Source: a virus. From it: a DNA stretch of 22,738 nt. The stretch lies in IMG/VR virus record IMGVR_UViG_3300037487_000923, positions 1 through 22,738 of that record, one strand, 5' to 3'. Both the position numbers and the translations under genes were made by a program. Under the pieces are notes generated by a model. That model made no database searches. It was not told where the DNA came from and saw only the letters and a program-made list of their open reading frames with translations. The stretch's first letter is position 1. Every line of letters starts with the position of its first letter. Of the stretch, positions 3,121 through 22,738 are shown piece by piece.

Positions 3121-3166
3121 CCTTTTTCAGATCAATTTAAATTATTAATTATAAAAAACAACAATT

Positions 3167-3760: not shown

Positions 3761-3779
3761 TTTGTTATAATAAAATAAC

Positions 3780-3811
3780 ACTCCTTAACCCCGTAAGGTT
3801 AGGGAGTTTTT
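3780..3811 (+). terminator. Rho-independent terminator after the SSB gene
   Basis: An 11-bp stem ACTCCTTAACC / GGTTAGGGAGT (one T-G wobble) closes a 6-nt loop CCGTAA and is followed directly by TTTTT. It lies 20 nt after the SSB stop and ends 14 nt before the primase ATG, leaving no room for a separate primase promoter downstream of it. It is therefore probably leaky or regulated, setting a high SSB to primase ratio. Confidence 0.9.
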
Positions 3812-3825
3812 AAAACTAATCCTTT

Positions 3826-4818: not shown

Positions 4819-4928
4819 CAGATGAAAATATAGAATATCTTTTAAATTTAATTTCATACGATGATTTAGATGAATATGAAAAATTAGAAGCGGTTAAAGA
4901 ATATTTATTAGACTTATTAAAAAAATAA
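4815..4928 (+). CDS. 37-aa acidic microprotein
   Basis: A short frame starting inside the primase stop (ATGA) and ending 3 nt before the next gene. The product is rich in Glu, Asp, Leu and Lys (DDLDEYEKLEAVKEYLLDLL) and would form one or two amphipathic helices. No known family is recognised. The exact overlap at both junctions and the codon usage like its neighbours support a real gene. Its function is unknown; an acidic helical peptide next to primase could be a small partner protein, which is a guess. Confidence 0.6.
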   Translation: MTDENIEYLLNLISYDDLDEYEKLEAVKEYLLDLLKK

Positions 4929-4931
4929 ATT

Positions 4932-5222
4932 ATGACAATACATTTAAACTGGCAACAATTTGTTGATAAGTATTCTCCTATAAAGAATACAATAGAATTA
5001 GATACTCCTTGTGATGGATTTTTATTTTTAGATAAAGATCAAATAAAAGATGTACCTTTGGAAAGAACTTGGTCATTAATGAATAATGAAGTTGATGATG
5101 ATATTTATATTACTAACGGTATAAAGATTATTAATTCAATGGGTTATTTAGTTACTAGAGAATCTTGGACTATTGATGAAGTTATTGAAGTACGTCTTGA
5201 AGAAGGGTATGAAATTAAATAA
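4932..5222 (+). CDS. Unknown 96-aa protein
   Basis: Not recognised. A soluble, acidic protein (IELDTPCDGFLFLDKDQIKDV, EVDDDIYITNGIKIINSMGYLVTRESWTIDEVIEVRLEEGYEIK) with predicted mixed alpha/beta content and no membrane segment. The start lies in AAATAAATTATGACA, the A/T-rich leader type used by other genes here. It lies in the operon between primase and nuclease genes with a 6-nt gap to the next gene. The position suggests an accessory role in DNA metabolism, but nothing in the sequence proves it. Confidence 0.7.
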   Translation: MTIHLNWQQFVDKYSPIKNTIELDTPCDGFLFLDKDQIKDVPLERTWSLMNNEVDDDIYITNGIKIINSMGYLVTRESWTIDEVIEVRLEEGYEIK

Positions 5223-5228
5223 TAAACT

Positions 5229-5663
5229 ATGGAAATAATAAAAGTAAGCTTTGATCCAAATGAGATTTGGAATCATGGTGATTTTAGACAACTAATAACT
5301 AATATTAGTAATGGGTTTTATAATGAATCTAGGTTTGAGTATGAATTATGGATTATTACTACAAATAATAATCTTAATTATATTAATGCACTAGCTAGTC
5401 AATTAAAAGTACCTACAGAAAGAACAGTTATGTGCTTAAATGATAGTAGTAAAGTAGGAATAATAACATTGAATTCAGATATTCACTTTGATGTTGAATA
5501 TACTATTATTCATGCATTAGATCCAACTACTGTTAAAGGTATATTTGTAGATAGAAAAATAGCTTATCCTGCAATGGGATTAAAATATATTCAAGATCTG
5601 GATAAATGGACAGCTATTATATTAAGAGAAAGAAATAATGGTGAGAAAATCACACCTTGCTAG
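5229..5663 (+). CDS. Unknown 144-aa protein, possibly a degenerate HAD-like fold
   Basis: Alternating hydrophobic strands and helices (YELWIITTNNNLNYINALASQLKV, SSKVGIITLNSDIHFDVEYTII, VKGIFVDRK) suggest a Rossmann-like alpha/beta fold. The order strand-T-N-N, a lysine in SKVGII, then DIHFDVEY loosely matches HAD phosphatase motifs II-IV. However, the motif-I DxD nucleophile is missing (the N-terminus reads VSFDPNEIW), so hydrolase activity is doubtful. The last 26 nt overlap the start of the PD-(D/E)XK nuclease, so the two are probably translated together. The HAD resemblance is tentative. Confidence 0.65.
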   Translation: MEIIKVSFDPNEIWNHGDFRQLITNISNGFYNESRFEYELWIITTNNNLNYINALASQLKVPTERTVMCLNDSSKVGIITLNSDIHFDVEYTIIHALDPTTVKGIFVDRKIAYPAMGLKYIQDLDKWTAIILRERNNGEKITPC

Positions 5664-6210
5664 CAAATTTAAACCTAGTGCTAAACCTAAAAAGAAAGCA
5701 GTACCTCATGGAGTTCCAACTGTACATGATGGTGTTCAACTAAGATCTGGATTAGAGAAAGTATGTTATCAAGCCTTACAGAAAGCTAATATAACACACT
5801 TTAATTATGAAGATGATGTATTTGAACTCCAAAGTAAATTTACAGCTACAGGAAGCTGTTATCAGCTCTATAAACGAATGATGGCATATGAAGAAGCTCA
5901 AGCTTTAGGAATTAATGCTAGATTTAAAGATAAGAAGAAAGCAAAATATGTATACCAATTTGGTGAAGTTACTAATAACCTTAGAGCAATAACTATTAAA
6001 CCTGACTTTAGTTGTCTTAATAAAGATACTAAAACTGGTTGGATTATTGAAACTAAGGGTGATTATACTAATGAATATCTTCTTAAATTAAGATTATTTA
6101 AACATTGGTGGACTACAAATGGATGGGTTATAGATTATTTTGCTCCCAACAACTTAACTAATGTAAATAAGTGTATTAAAATAATTAAAGAAAAATATTA
6201 TGGATTATAG
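5638..6210 (+). CDS. PD-(D/E)XK endonuclease, T7 endonuclease I-like (junction resolvase candidate)
   Basis: A 190-aa nuclease. The basic N-terminal arm (VRKSHLASKFKPSAKPKKK) could contact DNA. SGLEKVCYQAL (37-47) carries the conserved helix Glu40, KPDFSC (121-126) gives the PD with Asp123, and WIIETKGDYT (135-144) gives ExK with Glu138 and Lys140. This order (SGLEK, PDF, ExKG) is that of phage T7 gp3-type endonuclease I, which cleaves Holliday junctions and branched DNA during concatemer processing. An insertion of about 60 residues separates the first helix from the PD motif, longer than in T7 gp3. ATG at 5638 overlaps the previous gene by 26 nt; its stop overlaps the next gene by 11 nt. 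Family is secure, substrate is inferred. Confidence 0.85.
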   Translation: MVRKSHLASKFKPSAKPKKKAVPHGVPTVHDGVQLRSGLEKVCYQALQKANITHFNYEDDVFELQSKFTATGSCYQLYKRMMAYEEAQALGINARFKDKKKAKYVYQFGEVTNNLRAITIKPDFSCLNKDTKTGWIIETKGDYTNEYLLKLRLFKHWWTTNGWVIDYFAPNNLTNVNKCIKIIKEKYYGL

Positions 6211-6667
6211 AACTAAATATCATATAGCTAGAAAGTTATTATTTATGACAATGCTAGGAATTACTTCATATTTTGTATTAAAGATTATAATGCATAAAAA
6301 TGAAACACCTGAAATTCCTAAACCTTGTATTATATTTGATACTGTAAAAATAGAAGTTTTTAGTGAAGCTAATTTAATACGATATATGGATATTTTAGAA
6401 ATAGAATATCCAAATATTGTGTTAGCTCAGGCTAAATTAGAATCTGGTAATTTTACATCTAATAGATTTAAACAATATAATGCTTTATTTGGATTTCAAA
6501 CATCTAATACTAATATTATAAAGTATAAATCTTGGAAACAATCAGTTATTAATTATAAAAATTGGCAAATGCGTAGATTAAAAGATGGTGAAAATTATTA
6601 TGACTTTTTAGTAAGAGTTAAATATTCTGAAGATTCTAATTATATTAACAAATTAAAACAATTTTAA
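6200..6667 (+). CDS. Membrane-anchored glucosaminidase-like cell wall hydrolase
   Basis: A 155-aa protein with a short basic N-terminus and one hydrophobic segment at about residues 13-31 (LLFMTMLGITSYFVLKII), then a short linker and a compact catalytic domain. YPNIVLAQAKLESGNF (70-85) with candidate catalytic Glu81, followed by YNALFGFQ, is the signature of glucosaminidase/FlgJ-type and related lysozyme-fold domains that cut peptidoglycan glycan chains. The membrane segment fits a signal anchor, so the domain would face the periplasm, as in SAR-type endolysins. It is encoded in the replication block, not with virion genes. It may be the endolysin or an early envelope-modifying enzyme. The domain call is good; the role is inferred. 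Confidence 0.75.
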   Translation: MDYRTKYHIARKLLFMTMLGITSYFVLKIIMHKNETPEIPKPCIIFDTVKIEVFSEANLIRYMDILEIEYPNIVLAQAKLESGNFTSNRFKQYNALFGFQTSNTNIIKYKSWKQSVINYKNWQMRRLKDGENYYDFLVRVKYSEDSNYINKLKQF

Positions 6668-6668
6668 G

Positions 6669-6836
6669 ATGCCAAAAGTAGATTACAAAGATCTAGAAGA
6701 GATCACAAAATTTTTAGATAGAGTTGTAGCAATACCTAATCAAATTAAACCTAATAAGATTGAGTTAGATGCTGCTAAATTATCTAAAATGATTAAAGAT
6801 AAATACACTGAAATAAAACCTGATTACGAGAAATGA
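6669..6836 (+). CDS. 55-aa unknown microprotein
   Basis: Begins right after the previous stop (ATG at 6669) and its TGA overlaps the exonuclease ATG (ATGA at 6833-6836). The product is highly charged (KDLEEITKFLDRVV, KIELDAAKLSKMIKDKYTEIKPDYEK) and probably a helical hairpin. It has no membrane segment. No family is recognised. Precise nesting between two genes and neighbour-like codon use make it a credible gene, probably translationally coupled to the exonuclease. Confidence 0.65.
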   Translation: MPKVDYKDLEEITKFLDRVVAIPNQIKPNKIELDAAKLSKMIKDKYTEIKPDYEK

Positions 6837-7585
6837 TAGGATTAATTGATGCAGATTTTATACCATACTTTGTATGTTATAATAAACAAGATGAACCTGA
6901 GAAAACCTTAGACGAAGCTATTAGTTCAGCTAATAGTTATCTTCAAGGGTTACTCAATGGAACAAATGTAGAAGAATTTAATTTATTCTTTACAATTGGA
7001 AAAAACTTTAGATATGAAATATATCCAGAGTATAAAGCTAATAGAATTGGTAAAGAGAAACCACCTTTCTTTAATGAAGTAAGAGATTATTTAATTAAAG
7101 AATATAATGGTATTTCTGGATATAATCTAGAAGCAGATGACTTATTAGTTATTTATAAAAATAAATTAATTAATGAACAAAAAGAATATATTGTAATATC
7201 TACAGATAAGGATATAAATAACTTAGAAGGTAGACATTATAATATTAAAGAAAATGTGTTAGTGAATATTAGTGAAGAATTTGCTGCAAAATACTTTTGG
7301 ACATCTATGATTACAGGAGATACTGCAGATAATATTAAAGGATTACCTGGTAAAGGTCCTGTTTTTGCAGATAAATTATTCTTAAATATTGATGATGTAG
7401 AAAGTTATAGAAATTTGGTATTGAATGAATATATTACTAAATTTGGCGAAGAGAATGGAATAAATGAATTTTATGTGAACTACAAGTGTTTAAAAATTAA
7501 GGATTCTTACGAAGGTATTGAATTCCTGGAACCTATAAAAAGCACAGAAGTTTATGCAAGAACGCTTAACGTGGTTAGAGAGTAA
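6833..7585 (+). CDS. 5'-3' exonuclease, FEN / T7 gp6-like
   Basis: A 250-aa metal-dependent nuclease. Visible PIN/FEN motifs: IDAD (5-8) for the first metal-binding Asp; YPEYKANR (64-71), the R/K helix that engages the 5' phosphate; LEADD (99-103); ISTDKD (122-127); and GDTADNIKGLPGKGP (162-176), the H3TH region that grips duplex DNA, with Asp163 and Asp166 as ligands. These match phage T7 gp6, T5 FEN and the polymerase I 5' nuclease. It would remove RNA primers and 5' flaps and resect DNA ends for the Sak4/SSB system. It is stand-alone, not fused to a polymerase. Start overlaps the 55-aa gene, and its end overlaps the next frame by 32 nt. Confidence 0.92.
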   Translation: MIGLIDADFIPYFVCYNKQDEPEKTLDEAISSANSYLQGLLNGTNVEEFNLFFTIGKNFRYEIYPEYKANRIGKEKPPFFNEVRDYLIKEYNGISGYNLEADDLLVIYKNKLINEQKEYIVISTDKDINNLEGRHYNIKENVLVNISEEFAAKYFWTSMITGDTADNIKGLPGKGPVFADKLFLNIDDVESYRNLVLNEYITKFGEENGINEFYVNYKCLKIKDSYEGIEFLEPIKSTEVYARTLNVVRE

Positions 7586-8147
7586 TGGTTACATACAAGA
7601 TAATGTAATTAATCATACAAGAACTACAAGATTTCTAATGCCCTTAATTGGGGTATCAGAATTTAGTTTAAAACATATAAATCCTAAATTATTAATTAAT
7701 GCTCATTGTACCGGCACTGATGATAATTTGATTTATATAATCCTTAATAAGTTACAATTTCTTGAAGAAAGTGAAGCTTATTTAATTACTCAAAATTTAA
7801 ATGAACATTTTATTGATCATATTGATGATGAGCAAGAACATATTTTAATATATCAAGTACCTCAACATTTTGAGGATGATTATAATAAAATATTATTAGG
7901 TAAATATTCTCACACTAGTACTTTCTACAAAGAAGTATTGTGTAGAATTTACGGTATTAGTAGTAATACTACAAGCCATTTACCAACTATTTATGATTGT
8001 CTATATCCAACAGCATTAAAAAGAAAATTGTATGCTGAAGAATTAGATGTAGACATTAATTTAATAGACGAGGTTTCAAGTAAACCTAATTTAGACTATG
8101 AAATATTTAAAACAATTGAACAATTAAAAGAAAATTATGGAAATTAA
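7554..8147 (+). CDS. Unknown 197-aa protein
   Basis: Not assigned to a named family. It is soluble, acidic and mixed alpha/beta: strands such as DNLIYIILNK and HILIYQVP, then LLGKYSHTSTFYKEVLCRI. The GKYS turn after an acidic strand recurs in uncharacterised phage proteins, from memory. The ATG at 7554 lies inside the exonuclease gene (32-nt overlap), and there is no other in-frame start near the exonuclease stop. It overlaps the reductase start by 11 nt. The two-sided overlap suggests it is made together with the exonuclease and the reductase. Function unknown. Confidence 0.75.
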   Translation: MQERLTWLESNGYIQDNVINHTRTTRFLMPLIGVSEFSLKHINPKLLINAHCTGTDDNLIYIILNKLQFLEESEAYLITQNLNEHFIDHIDDEQEHILIYQVPQHFEDDYNKILLGKYSHTSTFYKEVLCRIYGISSNTTSHLPTIYDCLYPTALKRKLYAEELDVDINLIDEVSSKPNLDYEIFKTIEQLKENYGN

Positions 8148-10047
8148 AAAAGAGATTATTCCTTGGGGAGAAATAGGTTACATTACATATAAAAGAACTT
8201 ACTCTAGAAAATTAAATGATAATGATATTAATTCTAAAACTGAAGAATTTGAAGATACTATTGAACGTGAATTAAAAGCTTGTAAAACACAATTAAATTT
8301 AGAATTTAATCCTAGTGATATTGAATTATATCGTAAAACAAGATTAAATTTAAAATGGAGTGTAGCTGGAAGATTTATGTGGCAACTTGGAACCTCAACA
8401 GTAGATAAATTAGGATTACCTAGTTTACAAAATTGTGCGGGAACAGTTGTAGATCATCCAATTAGACCATTTACTTGGACTTTTGAAATGTTAATGTTAG
8501 GTTCTGGAGTTGGTTATAATATTCAAAAAGAATATGTATATCAATTACCTAAAATTCAATCTTCTCAAATTAAAATTATAAGATTAGACACTAAAGATGC
8601 AGATTATATTGTACCTGATTCAAGAGAAGGTTGGGTTAAATTACTTGGAAAAGTATTAAAAGCTCATTTTTATAATGGTGAAGGATTTACATATAGCACA
8701 CAATTAATTAGAAGTAAAGACTCTCCAATTAAAGGTTTTGGTGGTACTGCGAGTGGACCAGAAGAATTATGTTGGGGTATGAGTGAAATATCTAAAATAT
8801 TAAATATTAGAGCCGGTTTAAAACTTAGACCTATTGACGCTTTAGATATTATGAATATTATAGGGTTTATTGTAGTATCTGGAAATGTTAGAAGAAGTGC
8901 TCAAATTGCATTAGGTGATTATGATGATTTAGAATATCTTAAAGCTAAAAGATGGGATTTAGGTAATATTCCTAATTGGAGAGCAATGAGTAATAATTCA
9001 GTTGTTTGTAGTGATACTACATTATTACCTAATGAATTTTGGGATACTTATAATGAAGGAGAGCCTTATGGATTAATCAACTTAGAATTATCTAGGAAGA
9101 TTGGTAGAACAGGTGAAACAGAATATCCAGATAAAGATGTTGTTGTTTATAATCCTTGTGCTGAACAATCATTAAATAACTATGAAACTTGTTGTTTAAG
9201 TGAAATATATTTACCAAACATTACTTCATATGATGAATTAAAAAATGTATTAAGATTAACTTATAGAGTTAATAAACATAGTTTAGCTTTAAAATGTAGT
9301 CTTAAGGAAACTGAAAAAATTGTTAATTCTAATATGCGTATGGGTATTGGTATGACTGGTATTTTACAGGCTACTGTAGAACAACGCAGTTGGTTAAAAG
9401 ATGCTTATTTATATATTAGAAGTTATGATAAAGAATATTCTAAAATAATGAATTGGCCTACTAGTATTAAGTTGACTACAATAAAACCAAGTGGTACATT
9501 AAGTCTACTTGCAGGTGTTACTCCTGGAGTACATCCTAATCCTGCTGGTCCTTTTTATATTAGAAGAATTAGAATGGCTACAAATTCACCTTTATTATCT
9601 GTTTGTAAATCACATGGATATTCAATAGAACCACAATTTAACTTTGATGGTTCTGAAGATAAAGGCACAATGGTTGTATCATTTCCCTGTAAATTACCAA
9701 AAACTACACCTGTTGCTGCAGACTATAGTTGGAAAGAACAGTTAGAAATGGTTAGACAAATGCAAGCTGAATGGTCTGATAATTCTGTAAGTTGTACTGT
9801 TTATTATAAAAAAGAAGATTTAGAAGATATTAAACAATATCTAAAAGAGAACTATTCAACTAATTTTAAAACTTTATCTTTTTTATTATACTTTGGACAT
9901 GGTTTTAAACAAGCTCCTTACGAAACAATTACAGAAGAACAATATGTAGAACTAGTAAAAAATACAACACCTATAACATCTGTTGATGTTCAAGAAACAG
10001 ATTTTAACATTGAAGAATGTGGAACAGGTGCTTGTCCAATAAAATAA
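8137..10047 (+). CDS. nrdJ: Adenosylcobalamin-dependent class II ribonucleoside-triphosphate reductase
   Basis: Converts ribonucleotides to deoxyribonucleotides with a B12-generated thiyl radical, in the cytosol. All key residues of the monomeric Lactobacillus-type enzyme can be placed: Cys100 in LQNCAGT and Cys352 in ETCCLSE form the reducing pair (C119/C419 there). NPCAE (339-343) carries Asn339, the thiyl Cys341 and Glu343 (N406/C408/E410). The C-terminal tail CGTGAC (628-633) is the Cys-x4-Cys re-reducing pair (C731/C736), followed by PIK. MGIGMTG (402-408) and TIKPSGTLSLLAGVTPGVHP (448-467) are the RNR core loops. At 636 aa it is about 100 shorter than the 739-aa reference, with losses spread through the N-terminal half and middle. 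No separate small subunit or activase is seen or needed. Confidence 0.93.
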   Translation: MEIKKEIIPWGEIGYITYKRTYSRKLNDNDINSKTEEFEDTIERELKACKTQLNLEFNPSDIELYRKTRLNLKWSVAGRFMWQLGTSTVDKLGLPSLQNCAGTVVDHPIRPFTWTFEMLMLGSGVGYNIQKEYVYQLPKIQSSQIKIIRLDTKDADYIVPDSREGWVKLLGKVLKAHFYNGEGFTYSTQLIRSKDSPIKGFGGTASGPEELCWGMSEISKILNIRAGLKLRPIDALDIMNIIGFIVVSGNVRRSAQIALGDYDDLEYLKAKRWDLGNIPNWRAMSNNSVVCSDTTLLPNEFWDTYNEGEPYGLINLELSRKIGRTGETEYPDKDVVVYNPCAEQSLNNYETCCLSEIYLPNITSYDELKNVLRLTYRVNKHSLALKCSLKETEKIVNSNMRMGIGMTGILQATVEQRSWLKDAYLYIRSYDKEYSKIMNWPTSIKLTTIKPSGTLSLLAGVTPGVHPNPAGPFYIRRIRMATNSPLLSVCKSHGYSIEPQFNFDGSEDKGTMVVSFPCKLPKTTPVAADYSWKEQLEMVRQMQAEWSDNSVSCTVYYKKEDLEDIKQYLKENYSTNFKTLSFLLYFGHGFKQAPYETITEEQYVELVKNTTPITSVDVQETDFNIEECGTGACPIK

Positions 10048-10050
10048 ATT

Positions 10051-10518
10051 ATGAAAATATTTGATTTTGATAAATTAAATAGACCTGCAACATTAAGTGA
10101 GTACAAAGACGAGGAAACTTGTTTTTGTACTTCTTTAAAAAATAATAATATGGTATTAGATAATAAAAAAGAATTAGAACCCTTAGTAAGTAAATTAGAT
10201 ATTATTAAAGAAACAATTAAATTTGATGAAGGTAAACCTTGTATAAGTGATATACCTCAATTAAGTTTAATATCATTAGCTAAAGTATTTAACTATGGTG
10301 CTAATAAATATAGTAAATTTAACTACTCTCATGGCACAGAGTGGTTAAGATACTATGATGCTGCACAAAGACATATGAATTCTTGGATGACTTGTGAAGA
10401 TATAGATGAATCTACACACCATCATTTAGACCATGCAATAGCTAGTCTTATGATGTTAAGAGAAAATATACATCTTGATAAAGGTGTTGATAACAGAAAC
10501 CCTATATATAAAAAATAG
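10051..10518 (+). CDS. DUF5664-type dATP/dGTP diphosphohydrolase-like protein
   Basis: Residues about 53-140 match the phage DUF5664 pattern: KFDEGKPCISDIPQLSLISLAKVFNYGANKYS, then W-rich YDAAQRHMNSW, then STHHHLDHAIASLMML. These conserved Lys/Asp/His/Glu positions define an all-helical fold related to MazG-like nucleotide pyrophosphohydrolases. Pfam labels the family as the N-terminal domain of dATP/dGTP diphosphohydrolase. The first 50 residues are family-specific and polar. The gene lies 3 nt after the ribonucleotide reductase, so a dNTP-pool role is likely. Activity and exact substrate are inferred. Stop is TAG, one base before the next ATG. Confidence 0.8.
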   Translation: MKIFDFDKLNRPATLSEYKDEETCFCTSLKNNNMVLDNKKELEPLVSKLDIIKETIKFDEGKPCISDIPQLSLISLAKVFNYGANKYSKFNYSHGTEWLRYYDAAQRHMNSWMTCEDIDESTHHHLDHAIASLMMLRENIHLDKGVDNRNPIYKK

Positions 10519-10519
10519 T

Positions 10520-11431
10520 ATGGTATTAAACAAAATACAAAAACCAATTTATGATTGGTTATTATCAAAAACTGGATACTTAAAGTGTAGTCCTAAAGTA
10601 GTAGCTAAGAATTATCCTAGAAAAGTAGATGTTAAACATATAGTTATTGCTTTAGAGCAAGCTAGAATTACTTTTAAATCTAAAGAACCTGTTAAAGAAT
10701 CTAGTAAGCAATTAGTTTTAAGATTAATTAAACCTGAATCTCCAAGAAGATTTAAAGTTAATAAAGATTATGATTTAAACAATGTAATTTTCTTACCAGA
10801 TTTACATGCTCCATTTATTAAACAAGGTGTACTAGAATTTTGTCTAGAACAACAAGATAAGTATAAATGTGGAACTGTAATTTTTGCAGGAGATATTATT
10901 GATGGTCATGCTTGGTCTTACCATGAGCATGATGTAGATGGTATGTCAGTAGGTGCTGAATTAAGTGCTGCTAAAATTCAATTAGAAGAGTGGTTTAGAG
11001 CTTTTCCTAAAGCAATTAGTCTTATGGGTAATCATGATTTATTGATTCAACGTAAAGCTAAAACAATAGGTTTATCTCAACAATTTATCAAAGGATTTGG
11101 TGATGTATTAGCAGCTCCAAAAACTTGGGAATTTAAACTTGAGCATACTTTTCATAATGTATTATACAAACATGGAAGTGTTGGTGATGCATTTAAAGTA
11201 GCTAAAGAGTCTAGAATTTCAACTTGTCAAGGTCACTTTCATAGTAAAACTTTTGTTCAATGGTCAGTATCTGAAAAAGATTCTATCTTTGGATTACAAG
11301 TTGGTTGGGGTGCAGATAGACATGAATATGCTTTTGATTATGGTAAATCTTTTACAAGTAAACCAATCATTAGTTGTGGCTTAATTTTGGACAAAGGGAC
11401 AACTCCCATTGTTAAATTAATGCCTTTATAA
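10520..11431 (+). CDS. Calcineurin-like metallophosphoesterase
   Basis: A 303-aa protein. The ATG at 10520, two bases after the upstream stop, is preferred over an in-frame ATG 45 nt earlier inside the DUF5664 gene. Metallophosphoesterase motifs are complete: PDLHAP (Asp94, His96), GDIIDGH (124-130, Asp125/Asp128), GNHD (170-173), a histidine in YKHGS (218) and GHFH (238-241). These bind two metals for phosphoester cleavage. The N-terminal 75 residues (YDWLLSKTGYLKCSPKVVAK) look like a helix-turn-helix-like extension that could bind DNA. Phage members may act on DNA ends, RNA or nucleotides; the substrate here cannot be read from sequence. It follows the dNTP genes. Confidence 0.88.
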   Translation: MVLNKIQKPIYDWLLSKTGYLKCSPKVVAKNYPRKVDVKHIVIALEQARITFKSKEPVKESSKQLVLRLIKPESPRRFKVNKDYDLNNVIFLPDLHAPFIKQGVLEFCLEQQDKYKCGTVIFAGDIIDGHAWSYHEHDVDGMSVGAELSAAKIQLEEWFRAFPKAISLMGNHDLLIQRKAKTIGLSQQFIKGFGDVLAAPKTWEFKLEHTFHNVLYKHGSVGDAFKVAKESRISTCQGHFHSKTFVQWSVSEKDSIFGLQVGWGADRHEYAFDYGKSFTSKPIISCGLILDKGTTPIVKLMPL

Positions 11432-12331: not shown

Positions 12332-15300
12332 TTATTTAAAATAAAAATTTCCAGAAGTCATTAAGTTGTCAAATTGATGTTCTAAGTTAGCAATAGGAAC
12401 AACATCTTGAATTTCTTTATTTAATCTTAATTGACCTTTGTTAGGTCCTTTTTGTACATATAAATCTTTAGAATCACCTGCATAATTATATGGTAATTTA
12501 ACTAATTCTACTAAAATATCACCAAAATCACTAACTGCTCTTAACCCTGATACAGGATTTTTAATATTAGCAGCAATAGACTTAGGATTAATTGCAGCAT
12601 CTAATTCACCTCCAATTCTATCAGATTGTTTTCTTAAAAAGTTTACAAACATTTTAAGTTCTTTATCATCATCATCAATACCTTTAGCTAATCCTTCTAA
12701 TAATAACATTAATACAACACTAGATGCCCAATAAATAGCTTCTACTTGTAATTTTTTAAGATTAGATTTTTGATAATCTTCTAATGAACTAAAAGTATTT
12801 TTAATAGTGTCAAAATCAAATTTAGCACCTGCTTTTAAGATCATTATAAAATCTTTAAATGTTCTATATCTACCTTCTTGATAATTTCCAGAAGTTTCAT
12901 CATAATAAGTATTACCTAATCTAGATTTTCCAAAGTTATACATCCATTTTTTAAATTGCATTGCAGATTGCCCTAAAGCATGTTCTTGTAAAGCAACTTT
13001 ATCATTTTCACTGTAGTTACCATGAATCATTTTATTCATGTTTTTAATATCTACAGAAGCTGTTCTTTTTTGTTGAGGTGAATATTCAAAACCATCTTTA
13101 AGTTTTAATTCTCCATTAACAAACTCATGTGCTTCCCAAACTGATAATTTTTCACCAGTTTTAGAATTGGTAAGTATTTCAGATCTAAGTTTAGCAATAG
13201 CAGTATTAGATTGTGCTAAAAATTCACCACCTGTAATACCTAAAAACATTACTTTACTAATAGTTGAGCTATCTTCTATAATTTGATTTCTATCAATCCA
13301 ATTAAATTTTTTAAGCATTGCTTCAAATTTATTAGAAGGATCTAATAAATATTCATCTTTACCTAAATTTTTCATATAACTTAAACTTCTAACATATTCT
13401 GCAGTATCCATTATTGCAGCATTTAAATGTTTATTATCAAATCCAAATTGTTTACCAAATCCTTCTATTCTATTATTAATTTTAGCCATAATAACGTTAT
13501 TAATAGCTGAAAATGGATTTAAACCCAATGATTTGTAAGCTACAAAACTATTAAAGTTCTGTATGAGTTTAGATATTTTATCTTGGTTAGCTGGAGAATT
13601 AGAATAGAATATCATTCTCATATAACTTTCCATTCTTTTACTTACATTAGAATCAGAACCTTTAATAATTTCTTTTTGTTGAGCAGCATTAAGTTTAAAA
13701 AAGTTTTTTTGATCAATAACTTTTTTAGCGATAAGTAATGTAGCTTCAGCTTGTTTCATTAAATCATAATTTTCAGCCATTTGAGCAGCTTTAATTAATG
13801 ATTTACCCATATCTAATTCTAATTCATCAGGTGTAAGTTTAGATTCTTCAATTAATAAAAGGTTTTTAGTCATTTTAATTTTATTAACCAAGGCTTTATC
13901 TTTAGCGTTAGTTTGAAGTTCTTTTCTTAATTCTTCTAATTTCTTAGTTAATTGTTCAATCTTTTTATTACTTTTTAATTCTCCTGTATAAAAAATAGGC
14001 ACATCTTCTAACATATTTCCTTCTTCATCTAATTCTCTAGAAGTAAAGATTACATCAGGATTAATATATTGTCTAATAGACTTACTAACAGTATTAAATA
14101 TACCAATAGATTTAATATCTTTAGCAATAGAACTTCTAACTCTAAACATCTTACCTTGCATTTTTTGTTTAGTTGCTAAAGGTAATTTATCTAATAATTC
14201 ATTAGAAGTATTTTTATAAAATTCAAAGAATTCTTTTCTTGCAATACCTGCAGGAGATTTATCATTCATTAATGCGTGATATTGTTTATCAGCATATTTA
14301 GTAGTAGCACCATTTATTTCAGTAACAATTTCAACATGTTCAGGTTTAACTCTAGTAATTTCAACTCTTTCTACAGTACCATCATTAGTCCATTTTTTAG
14401 TTGCGTTATCATAAGTACTTTTTAATCTAAAAGATTCTTGCATTTCAGTATAGTATTTTCTTCTATATGCTTTATACAATCTTTCATATTCATTAAAAGT
14501 TAAATCTTCACCTGTAACTTTCTTAGTACCAGCTACATATGGTTTTTTAACCCATTGAGTATATCCTGATTCAGAAGTAACTAATTGTTCAAAGTTATTT
14601 CTTTCTTGTTTAAATTCATCAGAATATTTATGATTCTGACCATCTCTTGCTCCAGTGTTATCAACAGTTTCAGCACTTAAAAATGCTCCAACTTTTTTCT
14701 TATCTTCTGCAAATTTTAAATTATGTTGTTTTTCAGCATTAGATAATGTTTCTCCTGGCTTGTAAATATATTCTCTTTTATCACCTTTAGAATCTCTTAA
14801 AATTCCAAAGATATTAGTTCTATCTTTATAATATAGTTCACTAACTTTTTGTAATACTCTACCTGTTAACTTACCATCTTTAGTTTTTTGAAACATAAAA
14901 TCAAATCCTTCTACTCCTGCTTTCTTAAGTTTAGATATTTGATTTTTAACTTTACTAATCCAATTATTAGTATTTTCATAAACTTCTTCTCTAGTCTTTT
15001 CAACATGTCTTTGTAATAACTGTAATAATGGATCCATACTATTAGCTAAACCACCCATCTTACCTTCTTGCCAAGAAATATCTTTAGATTCATCGAGCAT
15101 TTGCTTAATATCTTCTTTACTAATACTTTTCTTAGTATTAGTTTTAACAAAGTTAATCATATACTCTTCAAGAATTTGTTCAACTCTTTCTTGAGTATTT
15201 TTATACATAGAATCTATTTCACTAGTAATCTTTTTAATTTCTGAATTTAAATCAGACATTTCAGGTGAAAATGTAGCAAATTCTTTATAGAACTCTAATT

Positions 15301-16594
15301 GTTTTCTAATTTGTAAAACAAAATTAATATGACTTTCATTATTCATATCAAAAGTTTTATCTAAAAAATCTTCAGTAACACCTAATTCATGATGAATAAA
15401 ATCTGCAGTATTTGTAAAAGCATCTATATTTTCTAAAGTAGATAACTTTTCTTTTAAATCTTTTAATCTGTTAATAGTATCTTCTTTAGGTAAATAACCC
15501 TTTCTTTCCTTAGCTGATTCAAACTCAAGTATTCTACTTTTTAAAAGAGTAATTTGATTTTGAATTAATTTGTTTAAGCGATTAATAGTTTGATTGCTTA
15601 ACACTTTTTTTTCAGTGACTTTTTCAGTTTCTTTAAATTCTGGTTTAAACTTAATATCTTTTACAGAATCTTGTATTTTTAATTTTACAGTTGGTAATAA
15701 TTCAGCAGATTTTGTAGAAGTATCTTTTGCATTATAATCTACAGCAATAGGTAATATAAATAATTCAGAAGCCTCTAAACCATTTGTATTATTTAATAAA
15801 ATTCTATACAAAGATAATTGTTTAGAATGTTGTTCACGCTTACTATCTTGTGTTTTACCACTTACAACTCTATATTTAGGACTACCATCAGGTTTTAATT
15901 CACCTGTTTTTTCAAATACTGCCGTAGAATCATATTTTGTTTGACCATAATTATCTTTTATAAAATTATTACCTCTCATGGTTTTCATATCATAAATACG
16001 AATATTACCTTGTTTATCATAAGTTAATAAATCCACGGTTCCAGCTACTCCAACTTCATCATTGTATACTAAAATATCATCGGCAATAACTGTTTCTCCA
16101 GAAGTTTCAAATTTCTTTTTTAATTCTTCTAATTGTTTTATAAATGAATCATATTCAGTTTTAGATAAAATACCATATCCAGAAATATCAGATTTTAAAT
16201 TATTACTAAAAAAATCACGAACTAATGTATCTATTTTAGTACCTATTGTAGAAGCACTAGTTAATAAATCACTATCTTCTGGACTATCTTTAAATACTGA
16301 AGTAACCCTTCTATATAATCTACCTGTTAAAGTATTTACATAATTTTTACCATCAGGTGTTAATTTAATAATTTTAGAATTTGTTTTTAAAGTACGAAGT
16401 TTTTCAGCTATTTCTTTAGGAGCATCTTTAAATTCTTCAACACCTATTTCAACTTTTTGACTAACATTACTTATAATATCGTTAATGTTACTAAAATCAG
16501 GTTTAATATTATAAATATTAGGATTATTTTTTAAATATTCAACTAATTCTTCTTTAGTATAAGTTTTCCCGTTATGTGAAAAAAGGCATGCCAT
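12332..16594 (-). CDS. 1420-aa giant protein: RecB-like nuclease domain plus long helical region, candidate packaged/ejected virion protein
   Basis: Domain order. Residues 1-50 are a short adaptor (MACLFSHNGKTYTKEELVEYL). Residues about 110-265 are a PD-(D/E)XK domain of RecB/Cas4 type: STIGTKIDTLVRDFF, then AGTVDLL (Asp188), IYDMKT (Asp202, Lys204) and QLSLY (Gln259, Tyr263). Residues about 320-500 and 870-925 are charged, coiled-coil-prone helices (IEQLTKKLEELRKELQ). One hydrophobic segment (IYWASSVVLMLLLEGLA) lies at about 1284-1303. Function of the C-terminal 1000 residues is unknown. It is last in the minus operon that also encodes the RNA polymerase. By analogy with crAss-like phages it may be capsid cargo injected into the host; the hydrophobic segment could help cross the inner membrane. 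Nuclease residues are seen; virion location is inferred. Confidence 0.8.
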   Translation of the reverse strand: MACLFSHNGKTYTKEELVEYLKNNPNIYNIKPDFSNINDIISNVSQKVEIGVEEFKDAPKEIAEKLRTLKTNSKIIKLTPDGKNYVNTLTGRLYRRVTSVFKDSPEDSDLLTSASTIGTKIDTLVRDFFSNNLKSDISGYGILSKTEYDSFIKQLEELKKKFETSGETVIADDILVYNDEVGVAGTVDLLTYDKQGNIRIYDMKTMRGNNFIKDNYGQTKYDSTAVFEKTGELKPDGSPKYRVVSGKTQDSKREQHSKQLSLYRILLNNTNGLEASELFILPIAVDYNAKDTSTKSAELLPTVKLKIQDSVKDIKFKPEFKETEKVTEKKVLSNQTINRLNKLIQNQITLLKSRILEFESAKERKGYLPKEDTINRLKDLKEKLSTLENIDAFTNTADFIHHELGVTEDFLDKTFDMNNESHINFVLQIRKQLEFYKEFATFSPEMSDLNSEIKKITSEIDSMYKNTQERVEQILEEYMINFVKTNTKKSISKEDIKQMLDESKDISWQEGKMGGLANSMDPLLQLLQRHVEKTREEVYENTNNWISKVKNQISKLKKAGVEGFDFMFQKTKDGKLTGRVLQKVSELYYKDRTNIFGILRDSKGDKREYIYKPGETLSNAEKQHNLKFAEDKKKVGAFLSAETVDNTGARDGQNHKYSDEFKQERNNFEQLVTSESGYTQWVKKPYVAGTKKVTGEDLTFNEYERLYKAYRRKYYTEMQESFRLKSTYDNATKKWTNDGTVERVEITRVKPEHVEIVTEINGATTKYADKQYHALMNDKSPAGIARKEFFEFYKNTSNELLDKLPLATKQKMQGKMFRVRSSIAKDIKSIGIFNTVSKSIRQYINPDVIFTSRELDEEGNMLEDVPIFYTGELKSNKKIEQLTKKLEELRKELQTNAKDKALVNKIKMTKNLLLIEESKLTPDELELDMGKSLIKAAQMAENYDLMKQAEATLLIAKKVIDQKNFFKLNAAQQKEIIKGSDSNVSKRMESYMRMIFYSNSPANQDKISKLIQNFNSFVAYKSLGLNPFSAINNVIMAKINNRIEGFGKQFGFDNKHLNAAIMDTAEYVRSLSYMKNLGKDEYLLDPSNKFEAMLKKFNWIDRNQIIEDSSTISKVMFLGITGGEFLAQSNTAIAKLRSEILTNSKTGEKLSVWEAHEFVNGELKLKDGFEYSPQQKRTASVDIKNMNKMIHGNYSENDKVALQEHALGQSAMQFKKWMYNFGKSRLGNTYYDETSGNYQEGRYRTFKDFIMILKAGAKFDFDTIKNTFSSLEDYQKSNLKKLQVEAIYWASSVVLMLLLEGLAKGIDDDDKELKMFVNFLRKQSDRIGGELDAAINPKSIAANIKNPVSGLRAVSDFGDILVELVKLPYNYAGDSKDLYVQKGPNKGQLRLNKEIQDVVPIANLEHQFDNLMTSGNFYFK

Positions 16595-16606: not shown

Positions 16607-17290
16607 TTAAATGTTTATATCAGACCAAGTTCTTTTATTTTTAATATCGTTTATTGTAGAACAAGATATATTATAATATAAAGCTAATTCTTTTTGTGCA
16701 ATACCGTTTATTAATTTTTCTTTTATTTCTTTAACTTGATTTATTGTAAGTTTTGTAATACTTTTACTTAATCTTCTTTTATCTCTATTTGCTAAATTAC
16801 CTTCTACTGTTCGTTTTCTAATTTTACCAGCTTCTTTCATTCTTATTTTTCTATATTCACTGTTTTTATTAGCTTCTTTAATTTTATTAATTCTTTCAAT
16901 AGTAAAAGGTTTACCTTTTAATGCTTTAGATAATTTTAGTTTTGTTTCATTTGTTACTATTCTACCTAAAACACTTCCTGCTATTTTACAAATATTATAT
17001 TCAGGTTTTTGTGTATCAATAAACCATTGTTCTAATTTAATACAATATTCTGAAGGACATATTGCTAATATTTTAAATTCAAAATTTTCTTTTCCATATT
17101 TATTAAAAGATCTTTGTAAATATTGATTATAATGAGTATTTTTTAATAATGCAGAATAATGTTGAGATGATCTTTTATAAAATCCACTATTATTTTTTTG
17201 ATTTATTGAAGAAGCACTTCCTATATATTTATAGTTATTTATTTTATTTAAAATACAATAAACTCCAGAATTAAAATTTTTAACAATCAT
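16607..17290 (-). CDS. GIY-YIG homing endonuclease (free-standing, Seg-like)
   Basis: A 227-aa mobile endonuclease. SGVYCILNKINNYKYIGSA (8-26) is the GIY-YIG core (GVY, YIG), with Arg40, His44 and LEQWFID (Glu87) as the other catalytic positions. TNETKLKLSKALKGKPFT (113-130) is a NUMOD3 DNA-binding motif and the basic stretch (KIRKRTVEGNLANRDKRRLSK) continues DNA contact. The end (INQVKEIKEKLINGIAQKEL, YYNISCSTINDI) is a helix-turn-helix. It inserts neatly between two late genes: 3 nt after the 202-aa gene and 12 nt before the 1420-aa gene. No intron is evident, so it is a free-standing homing gene that would spread by cutting alleles lacking it. It may not serve phage growth. Confidence 0.92.
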   Translation of the reverse strand: MIVKNFNSGVYCILNKINNYKYIGSASSINQKNNSGFYKRSSQHYSALLKNTHYNQYLQRSFNKYGKENFEFKILAICPSEYCIKLEQWFIDTQKPEYNICKIAGSVLGRIVTNETKLKLSKALKGKPFTIERINKIKEANKNSEYRKIRMKEAGKIRKRTVEGNLANRDKRRLSKSITKLTINQVKEIKEKLINGIAQKELALYYNISCSTINDIKNKRTWSDINI

Positions 17291-17293: not shown

Positions 17294-17902
17294 TTATCTA
17301 CTACAAAATTGTGTTATTTCTTCTGATTCCATTAATTTTTCTAAATCTTGAATTCCATCATAATCTGATCTTTCATAAGTATCTTCTGATGTTGCAATTT
17401 CTTCTTCATATTCTAATCTTGCATTTTCATTTTCAATTTTAGAATTCTGAATATAACTATTAATTACAGGAGTATTTAATTCAATAATAATTTTAACAAT
17501 TCCTGATTCACCTGAAACTCTGGCAATAGGTTTTTGAGCAGTAGTAACAAATTTACTATTAACTTCATTTGCTAATCTTTTAGCAACAGCGTAAGCTTGT
17601 TCTAAACTTTTAATTCTATTACTTCCTTCAGCAACACTAAAAGTATAAAGATTAGTTTTAGTTCTTTCAATTGCTGGAGAGTTTATTAAAATAGTTTTAG
17701 AAATATCTTCCGATAAATTATCACTACCTTTTATAAACTCTATACCTGTATTTAATTCTTCTATATTTACAGGAAATCTACCAAAAAAATCATTAAATCT
17801 AGTTGTATCTAAATATAAATCTACACTATTTTTACCAACAGCTTCTGCTAATTGTAATAAGTTTTTATATTGAGGGTCATTTATGTTTATACAATTTGTC
17901 AT
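17294..17902 (-). CDS. Unknown 202-aa protein in the giant-gene operon
   Basis: Not recognised. The protein begins one base after the polymerase stop (TAA-T-ATG) and precedes the homing endonuclease by 3 nt. It has a helical N-terminus (YKNLLQLAEAVGKNSVDLYLD), a mixed middle (SLEQAYAVAKRLANEVNSKF, GIVKIIIELNTPVINSY) and an acidic tail (LEYEEEIATSEDTYERSDYDGIQDLEKLMESEEI). No membrane segment or enzyme motif is seen. Co-transcription with RNA polymerase suggests an accessory or packaged partner. It could also be a split-off end of one of the giants, since related phages vary in how these are divided; I cannot test that here. Confidence 0.75.
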   Translation of the reverse strand: MTNCININDPQYKNLLQLAEAVGKNSVDLYLDTTRFNDFFGRFPVNIEELNTGIEFIKGSDNLSEDISKTILINSPAIERTKTNLYTFSVAEGSNRIKSLEQAYAVAKRLANEVNSKFVTTAQKPIARVSGESGIVKIIIELNTPVINSYIQNSKIENENARLEYEEEIATSEDTYERSDYDGIQDLEKLMESEEITQFCSR

Positions 17903-17903: not shown

Positions 17904-20900
17904 TTACATACATTTGGTTATAATTTCTTCTATTTCTTGTAACTCTGTTAAAGTATTAGCTTTATTAATCCTATCAGTTAATTGAGCGTACTGATTTGGA
18001 CTAAATTCTACACCACCTAATTGTAAAGTTTCTTGATTAACCATGTTTAATAATGCAGTTTTACCGTTTTCCAAAGCTACATTTTTTTCTTCATTAATCA
18101 AAGGTTTTTCTTTATTATCTACAACTATTTCTTCTACAACATTAGCAGATTCACCTGAAATTTCTTTAGTAAGATCTTCAGTTAAAGCATAAGGGTTAGT
18201 AGATTGTTTTACAGATGGATTAACAAGTTGTTGTTTTTTACTCATATCTTCAATACTTTCAAAAGAACTAGGATCAGTATTATTAAGATTATCTACTTCT
18301 CTTTCTGCAGGAGTCTTTTTAGTAATTTTACTAAATATACTAACAGCATTATTATAATCTCCTGGAGAAAACACACTAACACCTTTGTTACCTGTTTTTT
18401 CAACTAATTTATAAACAGCTGAATCACCTATTGCAAAACCTTCAGTTGTTTTATGAGCTTCTAATCCTTTAGTTCTATTTTGATCTAAATCACTACTATA
18501 ACTAACTAATTCATAAACATTTGCTTGATTTTTACCTCTTTCACCAACTCTAATACTCATAAATTGAGGAAAAATATAAGAAGTTTTAGTATAAGTAATT
18601 ATCTTACCTTCTTTATCTTTATAAGTACCTTCTTCTTTAACTTCACTAGATTCAAATAATTTATTTAAAACTTCTTTGTTTTCAATAATAGATTTTTCAC
18701 TAGCTAATTTGTTTTCTAAAGTTGCTTGTTGTTTTTCTAAATCTATTAACTCTTGTTCATTAATATATTCTTTTTTATTAATTTTAGATTTTATTTTAGC
18801 AATTTCTAAAGAAGTATCACTTTTAGTTTTAAAAGTAACTTCTTTGTTACCTTCAGAAACTATAACAGAACTATTATTATTTTCAACACCTACAAAAGTA
18901 AGTGCTTTCCAAGGAGTATTTAAATCTGCAGCATATAATTTTCTAAAATTATAACCTAAATCATCTAACTTAACAGATAATTTATCAGATTTAGTAACTA
19001 ATGAATCTATAATATTATCTAAAGATTTTGAATAACCACTAAACATTTCAACAGGCAAATATTTAGCTACACTGTTGTTTTTAAATGTCATATTATCTTT
19101 AACCATTAAATAACCTAACATATTGTTAACAAAATCTCTTGGTGTTAAACCTGTTTCATCTAATTTAGTATTGTTATCAAACCATAAAGATTTAACTGAA
19201 TCTATTAATAAAGATATAGTTTCATTACTTTCTTTAACAAAAGATTTAGTATCTATAACATCTGCTTCATAAATAGATTGATCTTCAACCTCTAAGTTAA
19301 CATCATTTATTTTAGCTGAAAAATATTTAACAATATAATTATTTTTAGTTGAAGGATTAGCTTTTAACACATTTAATTGTTGAGCCAAAGTCTTTTTACC
19401 TTCAGTGTTTAATTCATTAAATACTAAACCTAAATCAATAGATTTTAATCTTTTATTAATTGATTCTTTATCTATTTCAGAAGTAGCTAAATCATTTTTT
19501 AATTTTTCTAAACTACCCATATAAGCTTTAATAGACAAGAATCCTAAAAATTCTCTACTTACTTTAGCTAAGTTATCTCCAGTTTTAATAAAAGAAGGAT
19601 TTAAACTTTTTAAAAACTTTTGAAATTCTTTTTTAAATACTTTAGTTTGTTCAATAAATATCTTTTGACCTACTTGACGTTCAACAGTTAATGCACGTTT
19701 AATATTATTTAATGTATTTTTATCATTTTCTAATAAATCAGTAATATCAATATGTGGTTCAGTAGATACTTCTAAATTTTCATTTTCAGCTCCTACTAAT
19801 TCATTAATTTTAAAAGTATCAATTGCTTGATGTAGTTCATCATGTAATCCTGTAAATGAAACATCTAATCCTTGATTTAATTTAAGGAAAGTATTAATGT
19901 TTGACATCACATTATTTTGATCAACAACTTTTAAGAATTGAAACAATGCTTGTAATTGTACTTCATTATTACTAGTTGACTTAGTTGCATCAGAAGGTTG
20001 AAACTCATTACCTAATAAAATATTTTCAATATCTTGTTGAGATATAGTTGTTTGTTCAGGATTTAATTCACCTTTAGTTACTTTTTTAATTGCTACACCT
20101 AATTCATCTTTTGGATAAAGTATTTTAGCAATTGCTGCAGCTTTAATAGATTCTTTAGTAAAATTAGATTCTACATTAGTTTTAAGTGCATATTTTAAAG
20201 TTTTAGATAATTCACCATATTCTTGAATAATAGGTAAGTTAATTAATTTCATGGTATTTTCAAATGTCATACCTTGCATAATCAACTCCATAGTACCACC
20301 AAGTAATTCAAACTTTAAGTTTAATCTACCAGCAATAGGATCTTTAGCATTATCTGTAAAAGCATTTAAAAGTAAGTTTAAGTTATCTGCTATACGTTGA
20401 CCATCTTTATTTTTTTGTTCATATTTACCACCAACTTGCCCAGCAATATCAAATTTAAAAGATTCTCCATTAAATACAATACTTTTATTTCCCAATTTAG
20501 ACATTAAAAAAGCAAACTGTTGAATCTTATTAGCTGCAATACCAATACCATTTTTACCATCAGAGTTCTTTTTGTTAGAATCAAACTTACCATTAACATC
20601 ATGAGCAGATTTATTCTCATCTTTAATTTTACTTTCAGTTTGTTTAATAAACCCTTGTTTAATTAAGTCTTTTGTTAATGTTACTAAAGAATCTGTTGAT
20701 GTAGTATTATTAGTAATATTATTAAGTGACTCATTAGTTAAAATACCAATCATTGCATCTAACGCAGTGTTGTTATAATTAGCTGTAGGTTGTAATTTAG
20801 ACTTAATAAAATCTTCTTGAGTATAAGGTAAGCCTAATTTAATAGATGCTTCTTTATATGCTTCATCAAATACAACAGATTTAATTGCTGAAATTTGATC

Positions 20901-22738
20901 TTTTTCTAAATTTTTATTACTTAATAATGAAGTAAGTCTAGTATCTTTAGATAATACATTATTAAATACTATTTTAAAGTTCTTATCATATTTTTTATTG
21001 TAATACTGATAAGCTTCAAACTTTTCAGCATCAGTTTTCTCAGTACCAAATTTAACTGGAGCACCTTCTGAATTAATCCAAAATGCAGGCATTTGAATAA
21101 ACTCAGAGTCAATATCAAAATCCGCTCCTGATAAATATACAATCTCATCAGGAAATATACCTACACCATTGTAGTAATCTGGTAACAAACTAACTACTTT
21201 TAATGACATAGCTGACTGCTTATCACCTGTAGGAATACGATAACCAAACATTTTTAATATTTCTTCATGTTTTTCAGTAATCATATCTCCTACTTTTAAA
21301 CCATGTCTAGTTAAAATAGCTTGAGATAAAATACATTCAGAATATTTTCTACCATCTTTATCAGTTACATTATAACGTAAAGTAGTATTAGTAGTGTATT
21401 TAGATTTATCAGCATACTTAGAAGGATTTTTAACAACTTCATGATGAGATACAACATTACCTGTATTAATATCTCTAACAGGATTAATTCCTGAACCAGA
21501 TAATAATGATACTTTATCACCATTAACTTTTTGATTTAAAACACCTTTACTAAAATGTGATAAAATAACTTGTTCAGCTTTAACTAACATTTGAATCATG
21601 TTATAGTTATAACCACCTTCAAAATATTGCATTTGTTGAACATCAGCACCACTTGCCGCTAAAGATCTTTTAACAATTTCATCTAATTCTGTAGTATCAA
21701 TCATTCCATCATAAGTACTATCAGGACTTAAAGCTTTACCTTTTAAATCTTTAATAATAGCAATAGCCTTAGTAAATTCAGAATTTCTAGAGTTATTAAT
21801 TGCATCATTATAAATTGTTCTTAATTCACCAACTTTAATTTCTTTACCATTAACTAAGAATGGAACTGGTGCATTGTCATCTAATTCACTAGTAATAATA
21901 GTTAATATTTGAGAACCAAATACAATATCTTTTTTACCTGTAGGAGTTTCTACTTGTAATCTTTTAGTATTGTTAGCAACTTTAAATCTTGATTTAGATA
22001 AGTTTAAATCAGTAGATAAACTATCTTCAGCAAGCATTGTAGCTCCCTTAGAAGCAGATTGTGTAGCAACATGATCTACAGCATTCTTATCCATGTTGTT
22101 AGCTAAATTGTGCCAGTATTCCATTCCTGGTACTGGTTTATATAACTTAGCTATTTCTGCAGTAAGATTTCTAAATTGTTCACTTTCAAAATCATCTTGA
22201 TTAAACATTAACTCTGTTAATTCATTTGTTAAGTTTACAAAAGTATCTACATTTTTATCTTCAACGTAAGATATAGAACTTCTAACTAAACCAAATTCAG
22301 ACATCTTTAAAATTAATGCATTAACACCATCAAAAGCTACTGTTTTCTTAGAGTTTAATGAAGCTAAAGTATCTGATAAATATGATTGATTTTTATTACC
22401 AATATTAACATTTCTTACAATTTTACCAGATTTATCTCTTTTTGTAAATTGAATAATATTTTTATAAATCTCTCTAGTTGTTTCATCTAATCTACCCATT
22501 CTTAATGAACCCATCATAATATGATGTTGAGCAGCGTAAGATTGAGCGTCATTACTATTTATTTCTTTAATATCAGAAGCATTAACTTCTTTATTGTTGA
22601 TATCAAAATAACTATCTCCTTGTTTAGTAACTCTTTCTAAAGTATTAGTTTCAGGATTAAGTACTACATAAACAGGTATATCTTTAATAATTGCAGAGTT
22701 ATGATTACCTTTACCATAATCCATACCAGAAGCCATTG
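17904..22738 (-). CDS. crAss-like single-chain (virion) DNA-dependent RNA polymerase, C-terminal 1610+ residues; 5' end outside window
   Basis: Transcribes phage genes. The frame is open to the right edge, so the first methionine (22736) is probably internal. Catalytic signature: YLSGADFDIDSE at fragment residues 534-545 gives the DxDxD loop (Asp539, Asp541, Asp543) of two-barrel polymerases. It is preceded by GYRIPTGDKQSAMSLKVV, aligned with the cellular beta-prime RPPTLHR...NADFDGD layout. This form was described for the Cellulophaga phage phi14:2 virion polymerase (gp66). An earlier segment, NQKVNGDKVSLLSGSG (401-416), may belong to a second barrel region. The C-terminal 700 residues are helical with a coiled coil (YINEQELIDLEKQQATLENK) and a polar tail. 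Full length is probably above 1900 aa. It is first in the visible minus operon. Confidence 0.88.
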   Translation of the reverse strand, partial: MASGMDYGKGNHNSAIIKDIPVYVVLNPETNTLERVTKQGDSYFDINNKEVNASDIKEINSNDAQSYAAQHHIMMGSLRMGRLDETTREIYKNIIQFTKRDKSGKIVRNVNIGNKNQSYLSDTLASLNSKKTVAFDGVNALILKMSEFGLVRSSISYVEDKNVDTFVNLTNELTELMFNQDDFESEQFRNLTAEIAKLYKPVPGMEYWHNLANNMDKNAVDHVATQSASKGATMLAEDSLSTDLNLSKSRFKVANNTKRLQVETPTGKKDIVFGSQILTIITSELDDNAPVPFLVNGKEIKVGELRTIYNDAINNSRNSEFTKAIAIIKDLKGKALSPDSTYDGMIDTTELDEIVKRSLAASGADVQQMQYFEGGYNYNMIQMLVKAEQVILSHFSKGVLNQKVNGDKVSLLSGSGINPVRDINTGNVVSHHEVVKNPSKYADKSKYTTNTTLRYNVTDKDGRKYSECILSQAILTRHGLKVGDMITEKHEEILKMFGYRIPTGDKQSAMSLKVVSLLPDYYNGVGIFPDEIVYLSGADFDIDSEFIQMPAFWINSEGAPVKFGTEKTDAEKFEAYQYYNKKYDKNFKIVFNNVLSKDTRLTSLLSNKNLEKDQISAIKSVVFDEAYKEASIKLGLPYTQEDFIKSKLQPTANYNNTALDAMIGILTNESLNNITNNTTSTDSLVTLTKDLIKQGFIKQTESKIKDENKSAHDVNGKFDSNKKNSDGKNGIGIAANKIQQFAFLMSKLGNKSIVFNGESFKFDIAGQVGGKYEQKNKDGQRIADNLNLLLNAFTDNAKDPIAGRLNLKFELLGGTMELIMQGMTFENTMKLINLPIIQEYGELSKTLKYALKTNVESNFTKESIKAAAIAKILYPKDELGVAIKKVTKGELNPEQTTISQQDIENILLGNEFQPSDATKSTSNNEVQLQALFQFLKVVDQNNVMSNINTFLKLNQGLDVSFTGLHDELHQAIDTFKINELVGAENENLEVSTEPHIDITDLLENDKNTLNNIKRALTVERQVGQKIFIEQTKVFKKEFQKFLKSLNPSFIKTGDNLAKVSREFLGFLSIKAYMGSLEKLKNDLATSEIDKESINKRLKSIDLGLVFNELNTEGKKTLAQQLNVLKANPSTKNNYIVKYFSAKINDVNLEVEDQSIYEADVIDTKSFVKESNETISLLIDSVKSLWFDNNTKLDETGLTPRDFVNNMLGYLMVKDNMTFKNNSVAKYLPVEMFSGYSKSLDNIIDSLVTKSDKLSVKLDDLGYNFRKLYAADLNTPWKALTFVGVENNNSSVIVSEGNKEVTFKTKSDTSLEIAKIKSKINKKEYINEQELIDLEKQQATLENKLASEKSIIENKEVLNKLFESSEVKEEGTYKDKEGKIITYTKTSYIFPQFMSIRVGERGKNQANVYELVSYSSDLDQNRTKGLEAHKTTEGFAIGDSAVYKLVEKTGNKGVSVFSPGDYNNAVSIFSKITKKTPAEREVDNLNNTDPSSFESIEDMSKKQQLVNPSVKQSTNPYALTEDLTKEISGESANVVEEIVVDNKEKPLINEEKNVALENGKTALLNMVNQETLQLGGVEFSPNQYAQLTDRINKANTLTELQEIEEIITKCM
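21108..21122 (-). other. RNA polymerase catalytic metal loop DFDID
   Basis: Encodes Asp-Phe-Asp-Ile-Asp (residues 539-543 of the visible fragment) in the context SGADFDIDSE. The three aspartates would hold the catalytic Mg2+, as in DFDGD of cellular RNA polymerases. Confidence 0.9.

Follow-up and report, generated by a model that had tools for sequence, protein, structure and literature searches.

A giant open reading frame at the contig edge

What is encoded by the long frame that runs off the end of this virus record, and what does it tell us about the phage that carries it? The window (the whole stretch of DNA analysed here, 22,738 nucleotides, positions 1 to 22,738 of IMG/VR record IMGVR_UViG_3300037487_000923) ends inside a minus-strand frame of 1,610 amino acids (17904-22736) that opens at the contig edge (22736), in the last bases of the record. 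The frame reads GYRIPTGDKQS...PDEIVYLSGADFDIDSEF and also contains ...GYRIPTGDKQSAMSLKVVSLLPDYYNGVGIFPDEIVYLSGADFDIDSEF... A preliminary description had taken the part at 20980-21260 for the active site of a single-chain RNA polymerase in a giant late gene, and YRIPTG and DFDID are indeed encoded there on the minus strand, with the DFDID codons at 21122-21108. Four close IMG/VR relatives extend the ORF upstream, and in two of them it is complete, at 4,215 and 4,060 amino acids. The first methionine of the window ORF is an internal one in these complete ORFs, and the window portion corresponds to the C-terminal ~40% of an ORF of ~4,060-4,215 amino acids, a size taken from the relatives. The gene was rightly called giant as far as the relatives go; the window ORF itself is cut by the contig edge. 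The polymerase frame, its motifs and its two neighbouring ORFs are as follows, with the role of each part as predicted:

17904..22736, minus strand: C-terminal 1,610 aa of the giant RNA polymerase ORF, including the greater part of the catalytic core; truncated on the 5' side by the contig edge; profile match to 6vr4 at E 8.6e-83
21837..22712, minus strand: probable beta-like N-terminal barrel region, window aa ~9-300 (limits approximate), placed by model strands 252-543 and the gp66 alignment
22346-22344 and 22307-22305, minus strand: Lys131 and Lys144, invariant, inside the N-terminal barrel region
21051..21536, minus strand: beta-prime-like barrel, at approximately window aa ~401-562; cellular beta-prime aligns with the model from residue 643 onwards
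21225..21242, minus strand: YRIPTG, residues 499-504, within the conserved motif GYR[IV]P[TN]
21108..21122, minus strand: DFDID metal-binding motif, predicted catalytic, aa 539-543, in the loop before a strand
20529..20558, minus strand: GKNGIGIAAN, aa 727-736, aligned with gp66 GKSGVGITAN
20337..20369, minus strand: LNAFTDNAKDP, aa 790-800, aligned with gp66 LNAFVDNAKDP; Asp795 invariant
17294..17902, minus strand: ORF of 202 aa, located between the polymerase and gp65-like genes
12332..16594, minus strand: gp65-like polymerase-associated protein, 1,420 aa; blastp to phi14:2 gp65 at E 2e-20, tblastn to crassvirus 'RNA-polymerase subunit' genes

Profile and structure comparisons point to the phi14:2 RNA polymerase

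Searches of Pfam, PHROG and the PDB with the single sequence return no match for the polymerase ORF, and neither does a search of the PDB with a five-row profile of close relatives, so that a diverse profile was needed. Using tblastn against phage genomes, we obtained 80 records, mostly crassviruses, including annotated RNA-polymerase catalytic subunits of Rudgehvirus (E 1e-13), crAss002 and crAssphage (gp44). A motif alignment led to 80 IMG/VR loci and from these to a 55-row alignment, A3, with a mean column identity of 20%. Against the PDB, the A3 profile has a single significant chain, 6vr4 (phi14:2 RNA polymerase), with an E value of 8.6e-83 over residues 589-1801. A3 has no phi14:2 row, but gp66 was represented, by a 75-aa motif region, in the seed alignment with which its rows were retrieved; the match to 6vr4 far exceeds this seed in length. 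The profile gives no sequence match to QDE-1 or RDR2, which are matched in fold only.

We modelled with AlphaFold2 a 1,180-aa segment of a relative (L022, from the same record as L004) that is 85% identical to the window (pLDDT 84.1, pTM 0.83). In a Foldseek search of the PDB, 6vr4 comes first (E 1.8e-29), followed by QDE-1 (1.3e-3) and P23-45 gp96. VIA-align aligns 6vr4 with Z 19.2 over 908 residues at about 19% identity, and QDE-1, RDR2 and P23-45 gp96 with Z 14-15.4, 10-14 and 9.9; cellular beta-prime subunits reach Z ~10, aligned from model residue ~643 on. Matches in a viral structure library are mostly crAss-like polymerases, the best being A0A7S9XE14 of Virus NIOZ-UU157 (E 2e-31, 21% identity). 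The model aligns with 6vr4 and QDE-1 from end to end, which puts both barrels in one chain of the modelled relative, and this match suggests that the N-terminal barrel region is the beta-like barrel. Since the window ORF is 5'-truncated, it is the relatives that support two barrels in one chain: the completeness of the window's own first barrel is not visible, and its extreme N-terminus may be cut. In the model, D781-D785 (window 539-543) form a coil that leads directly into a strand (786-790).

These comparisons agree with the preliminary description, which had recognized a crAss-like single-chain polymerase from the sequence: the profile leads to 6vr4, as does the best fold match. Its proposed kinship with eukaryotic RNAi polymerases is likewise reflected in QDE-1 and RDR2, which come next after 6vr4 in the fold matches. 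It had named the two-barrel fold and the place of DFDID in a barrel loop as the points on which the reading could fail; the model's best PDB match is the two-barrel phi14:2 gp66 (6vr4), and DFDID lies in the loop before a strand of the beta-prime-like barrel.

DFDID and the invariant residues

In window numbering, K131, K144, K230, Q276, E467, R500, P502, S508, P519, G537, D539, F540, D541, D543, N656 and D795 are invariant in all 55 rows. Within DFDID, the three aspartates and the phenylalanine are present throughout, and the fourth position is isoleucine in 52 rows and valine in the other three. Such invariance in an alignment with so low a mean identity argues that the motif is not a chance occurrence. 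For most of the rows, the retrieval pattern itself included DFD[IV]D; the same motif is nevertheless present in annotated crassvirus genomes that tblastn identified independently of this pattern. DFDID is found in phi14:2 gp66 (1361-1365), Rudgehvirus, crAss002, cr271, cr118, cr50 and cr4, and DFDVD in crAssphage, cr85, cr112, cr110, cr11, cr1, cr128 and Dulem41. Judging from these sequences, Crassvirales normally have DFDID or DFDVD at this site. The preliminary description had stressed DFDID in place of DFDGD; within crassviruses this is not distinctive, since phi14:2 gp66 itself has DFDID and DFD[IV]D is usual. A deviation peculiar to the window phage was rejected on the same evidence.

The conserved YRIPTG may be the counterpart of the cellular NRAPTLH region. 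K131 and K144 are candidates for the two beta-subunit lysines; in the alignment, their context is KKTVAFDG..LILKMS in the window and LKGVYFG..TYLKYS in gp66. A Lys-Arg pair directly ahead of the first barrel is present in every row that covers the site, which in the window lies off the contig end.

The window belongs to a metagenomic branch of crassviruses

In the polymerase tree, the window groups within an all-metagenomic branch of 27 rows (SH-aLRT 100) that is distinct from the Intestiviridae, Steigviridae and Suoliviridae sampled; the tree is without Crevaviridae and the epsilon and zeta groups, and phi14:2 forms a long branch whose placement is unsure. Also left out were the polymerase ORFs of cr7 and cr114, which have no read-through under the standard code, and that of cr4, which is short. 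The hallmark genes of Crassvirales (TerL, portal, MCP, tail) are found in near-complete relatives and not in the window fragment, and the relatives' homologues of phi14:2 TerL, portal and MCP have E values of about 1e-50, 1e-106 and 1e-38. On this sequence evidence, we assign the window phage to Crassvirales, outside the three families sampled. The polymerase had been said to set the phage's lineage; it does so for Crassvirales, and in the polymerase tree the window lies outside the sampled families. In four of five relatives (the records of L003, L004, L018 and L019), in-frame stops fall within the match to the terminase large subunit, which looks as though an insertion had interrupted it.

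The L004 record has TerL, portal, MCP and tail tubular protein at 11.7-34.5 kb and the polymerase at 44.7-57.3 kb, all encoded by one strand, and this co-direction supports the description of a late gene.

At the other end of the window, a replication and nucleotide block (3-11431, plus strand) runs in the opposite direction, facing the polymerase. It contains the 3' end of a helicase, a DnaB-like helicase, an AAA ATPase and a Toprim (primase-like) protein, together with a glucosaminidase-like protein, a 5'-3' exonuclease, a B12-type ribonucleotide reductase, a dATP/dGTP diphosphohydrolase domain and a metallophosphoesterase.

The genes next to the polymerase differ among close relatives. The 202-aa ORF (17294-17902) shares only its C-terminal ~47-63 aa with a 147-aa ORF at the same place in L002 and L004, and its N-terminal ~140 aa look replaced. 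Compared with the sister locus L002, which has ~95% DNA identity nearby, the window has a clean ~681-bp insertion between the 202-aa and gp65-like ORFs, a free-standing GIY-YIG homing endonuclease gene (16607-17290, minus strand; Pfam PF01541, PHROG 314). The gp65-like ORF carries an in-frame insert of ~255 aa (aa ~51-306; window 15677-16444, minus strand) that is absent from L002, L004 and L005 and matches a PD-(D/E)XK nuclease (Pfam PF12705, 23.8 bits against a cutoff of 22). PDDEXK domains have already been reported in large transcription proteins of some crassviruses (PMC7886860).

A metallopeptidase signature upstream in the same ORF

In the complete ORF of L004 (2210-14857), an apparently intact zinc-metallopeptidase signature, HEAFH...EEYLAD, is found at about residue 1683, ~1,450 aa upstream of DFDID. 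HEAFH...EEY is invariant in 39 rows. A second model, of this part, has a mean pLDDT of 69.5, higher in the core. Foldseek finds no significant match for it, and VIA-align gives weak matches whose top rows are zinc peptidases (PPEP-3, Z 6.4, with a noise guide of 8). Because the fold searches are weak or empty, the call of a metallopeptidase domain rests on the invariant HExxH...E pattern. In the lineage of the window, the HEAFH...EEY part and the polymerase share one ORF of ~4,000 residues, and the gp65-like gene is separate. A rather doubtful possibility is that the peptidase frees the polymerase by cleaving the chain, either inside the capsid or following ejection, which would make the ORF a self-processing polymerase polyprotein. 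We considered the fusion of metallopeptidase and polymerase as a new arrangement and rejected this, as Suoliviridae genomes share it in one ORF. For the polymerase genes of crassviruses, lengths of up to ~6,000 aa have been described (PMC10136315).

A predicted virion polymerase and its alternatives

We consider it very probable that the product of the window ORF is the catalytic part of a DNA-dependent RNA polymerase of the Crassvirales type, with two barrels in a single chain, and infer for it a mechanism of injection from the virion. The polymerase would be made late, together with the structural genes, and packed in the capsid; it would then be extruded through the tail into the cell, ahead of or with the DNA, where it would refold and transcribe the early replication genes. 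Late expression and virion packaging in the window phage are suggested by synteny and by analogy with phi14:2 and crAss001, and polymerase activity is likewise predicted by analogy. The phi14:2 polymerase has been reported as a virion component that transcribes early genes (PMC7886860), and polymerase-associated proteins have been detected in crAss001 virions (PMC10172136).

The same type of polymerase could instead be a non-virion enzyme, made after infection for later genes, as P23-45 gp64 is; of the two-barrel polymerases that P23-45 encodes, one is a virion protein and the other is not (PMC10770324). We regard this as unlikely, because in the relatives the gene is co-directional with the structural block and lies at its end, and because proteomics, according to the record annotation, places phi14:2 gp65-gp67 in the virion. 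Far less probable is a decayed, inactive polymerase-like virion protein retained for a structural role: extreme divergence, seen in the 20% mean column identity, would fit such decay, but the catalytic aspartates and two lysines are invariant across the 55 divergent rows, and the long ORFs are intact throughout. That a cellular beta-prime or a eukaryote-type RNAi polymerase unrelated to crassvirus enzymes was captured is hardly credible, for the fold similarity to QDE-1 and RDR2 (Z 10-15) and to beta-prime barrels (Z ~10) is surpassed by a better match to 6vr4 over about twice the length, the motif is DFD[IV]D and not DFDGD, and synteny and hallmark genes are crassviral.

The window polymerase adds a new, divergent member to a known family and does not represent a new kind of enzyme. 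The family of crAss-like polymerases, together with the presumed strategy of injecting the phage's own polymerase, reaches across a broad metagenomic branch beyond the crassvirus families sampled. For testing, the analysis provides alignments and a set of invariant residues (Lys131, Lys144, Asp539/541/543 and Asp795, window numbering). Standard profile libraries miss the gene, and such genes are left 'hypothetical' or misnamed 'DNA helicase'. The latter is the annotation that the giant RNA-polymerase ORFs of cr118_1 and cr50_1 (L100, L102) carry in the deposited genomes.

Comparison with known polymerases

The polymerase of phi14:2 (gp66, 6vr4; a Cellulophaga phage of the Steigviridae) shares with the window homology over ~1,200 aa, the fold, DFDID and a downstream gp65-like gene. 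However, gp66 is a separate protein of 2,180 aa, gp67 is encoded upstream by a gene of its own, and gp67, gp66 and gp65 are all separate. Closer in arrangement are the Suoliviridae (uncultured phages cr118_1 and cr50_1), in which one ORF of 4,774-4,946 aa carries HEAFH and then, ~1,480 aa later, DFDID, again with a separate gp65-like gene; these gut phages belong to another branch of the polymerase tree. In crAssphage (Carjivirus communis, Intestiviridae), gp44/gp45 include a GYRIPT...TGSDFDVD polymerase with a zincin-bearing protein encoded adjacent to it, but the zincin protein has a gene of its own, and on the downstream side the polymerase is joined to a further subunit. The match of Virus NIOZ-UU157 (A0A7S9XE14) is structural, to the model of the window's relative, and the virus is unclassified.

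Outside the crassviruses, QDE-1 and RDR2 have the same single-chain two-barrel fold, whereas their identity is about 10% and their biology is different. P23-45 gp96 resembles the window lineage as a two-barrel virion polymerase inside a giant protein that also includes a metallopeptidase domain (PMC10770324); unlike the window polymerase, it is fused to a tail tape measure protein, has DFDGD and comes from a Thermus phage. Cellular beta-prime is a separate subunit with DFDGD, whereas in the type represented by the window the motif is DFDID and both barrels belong to one chain.
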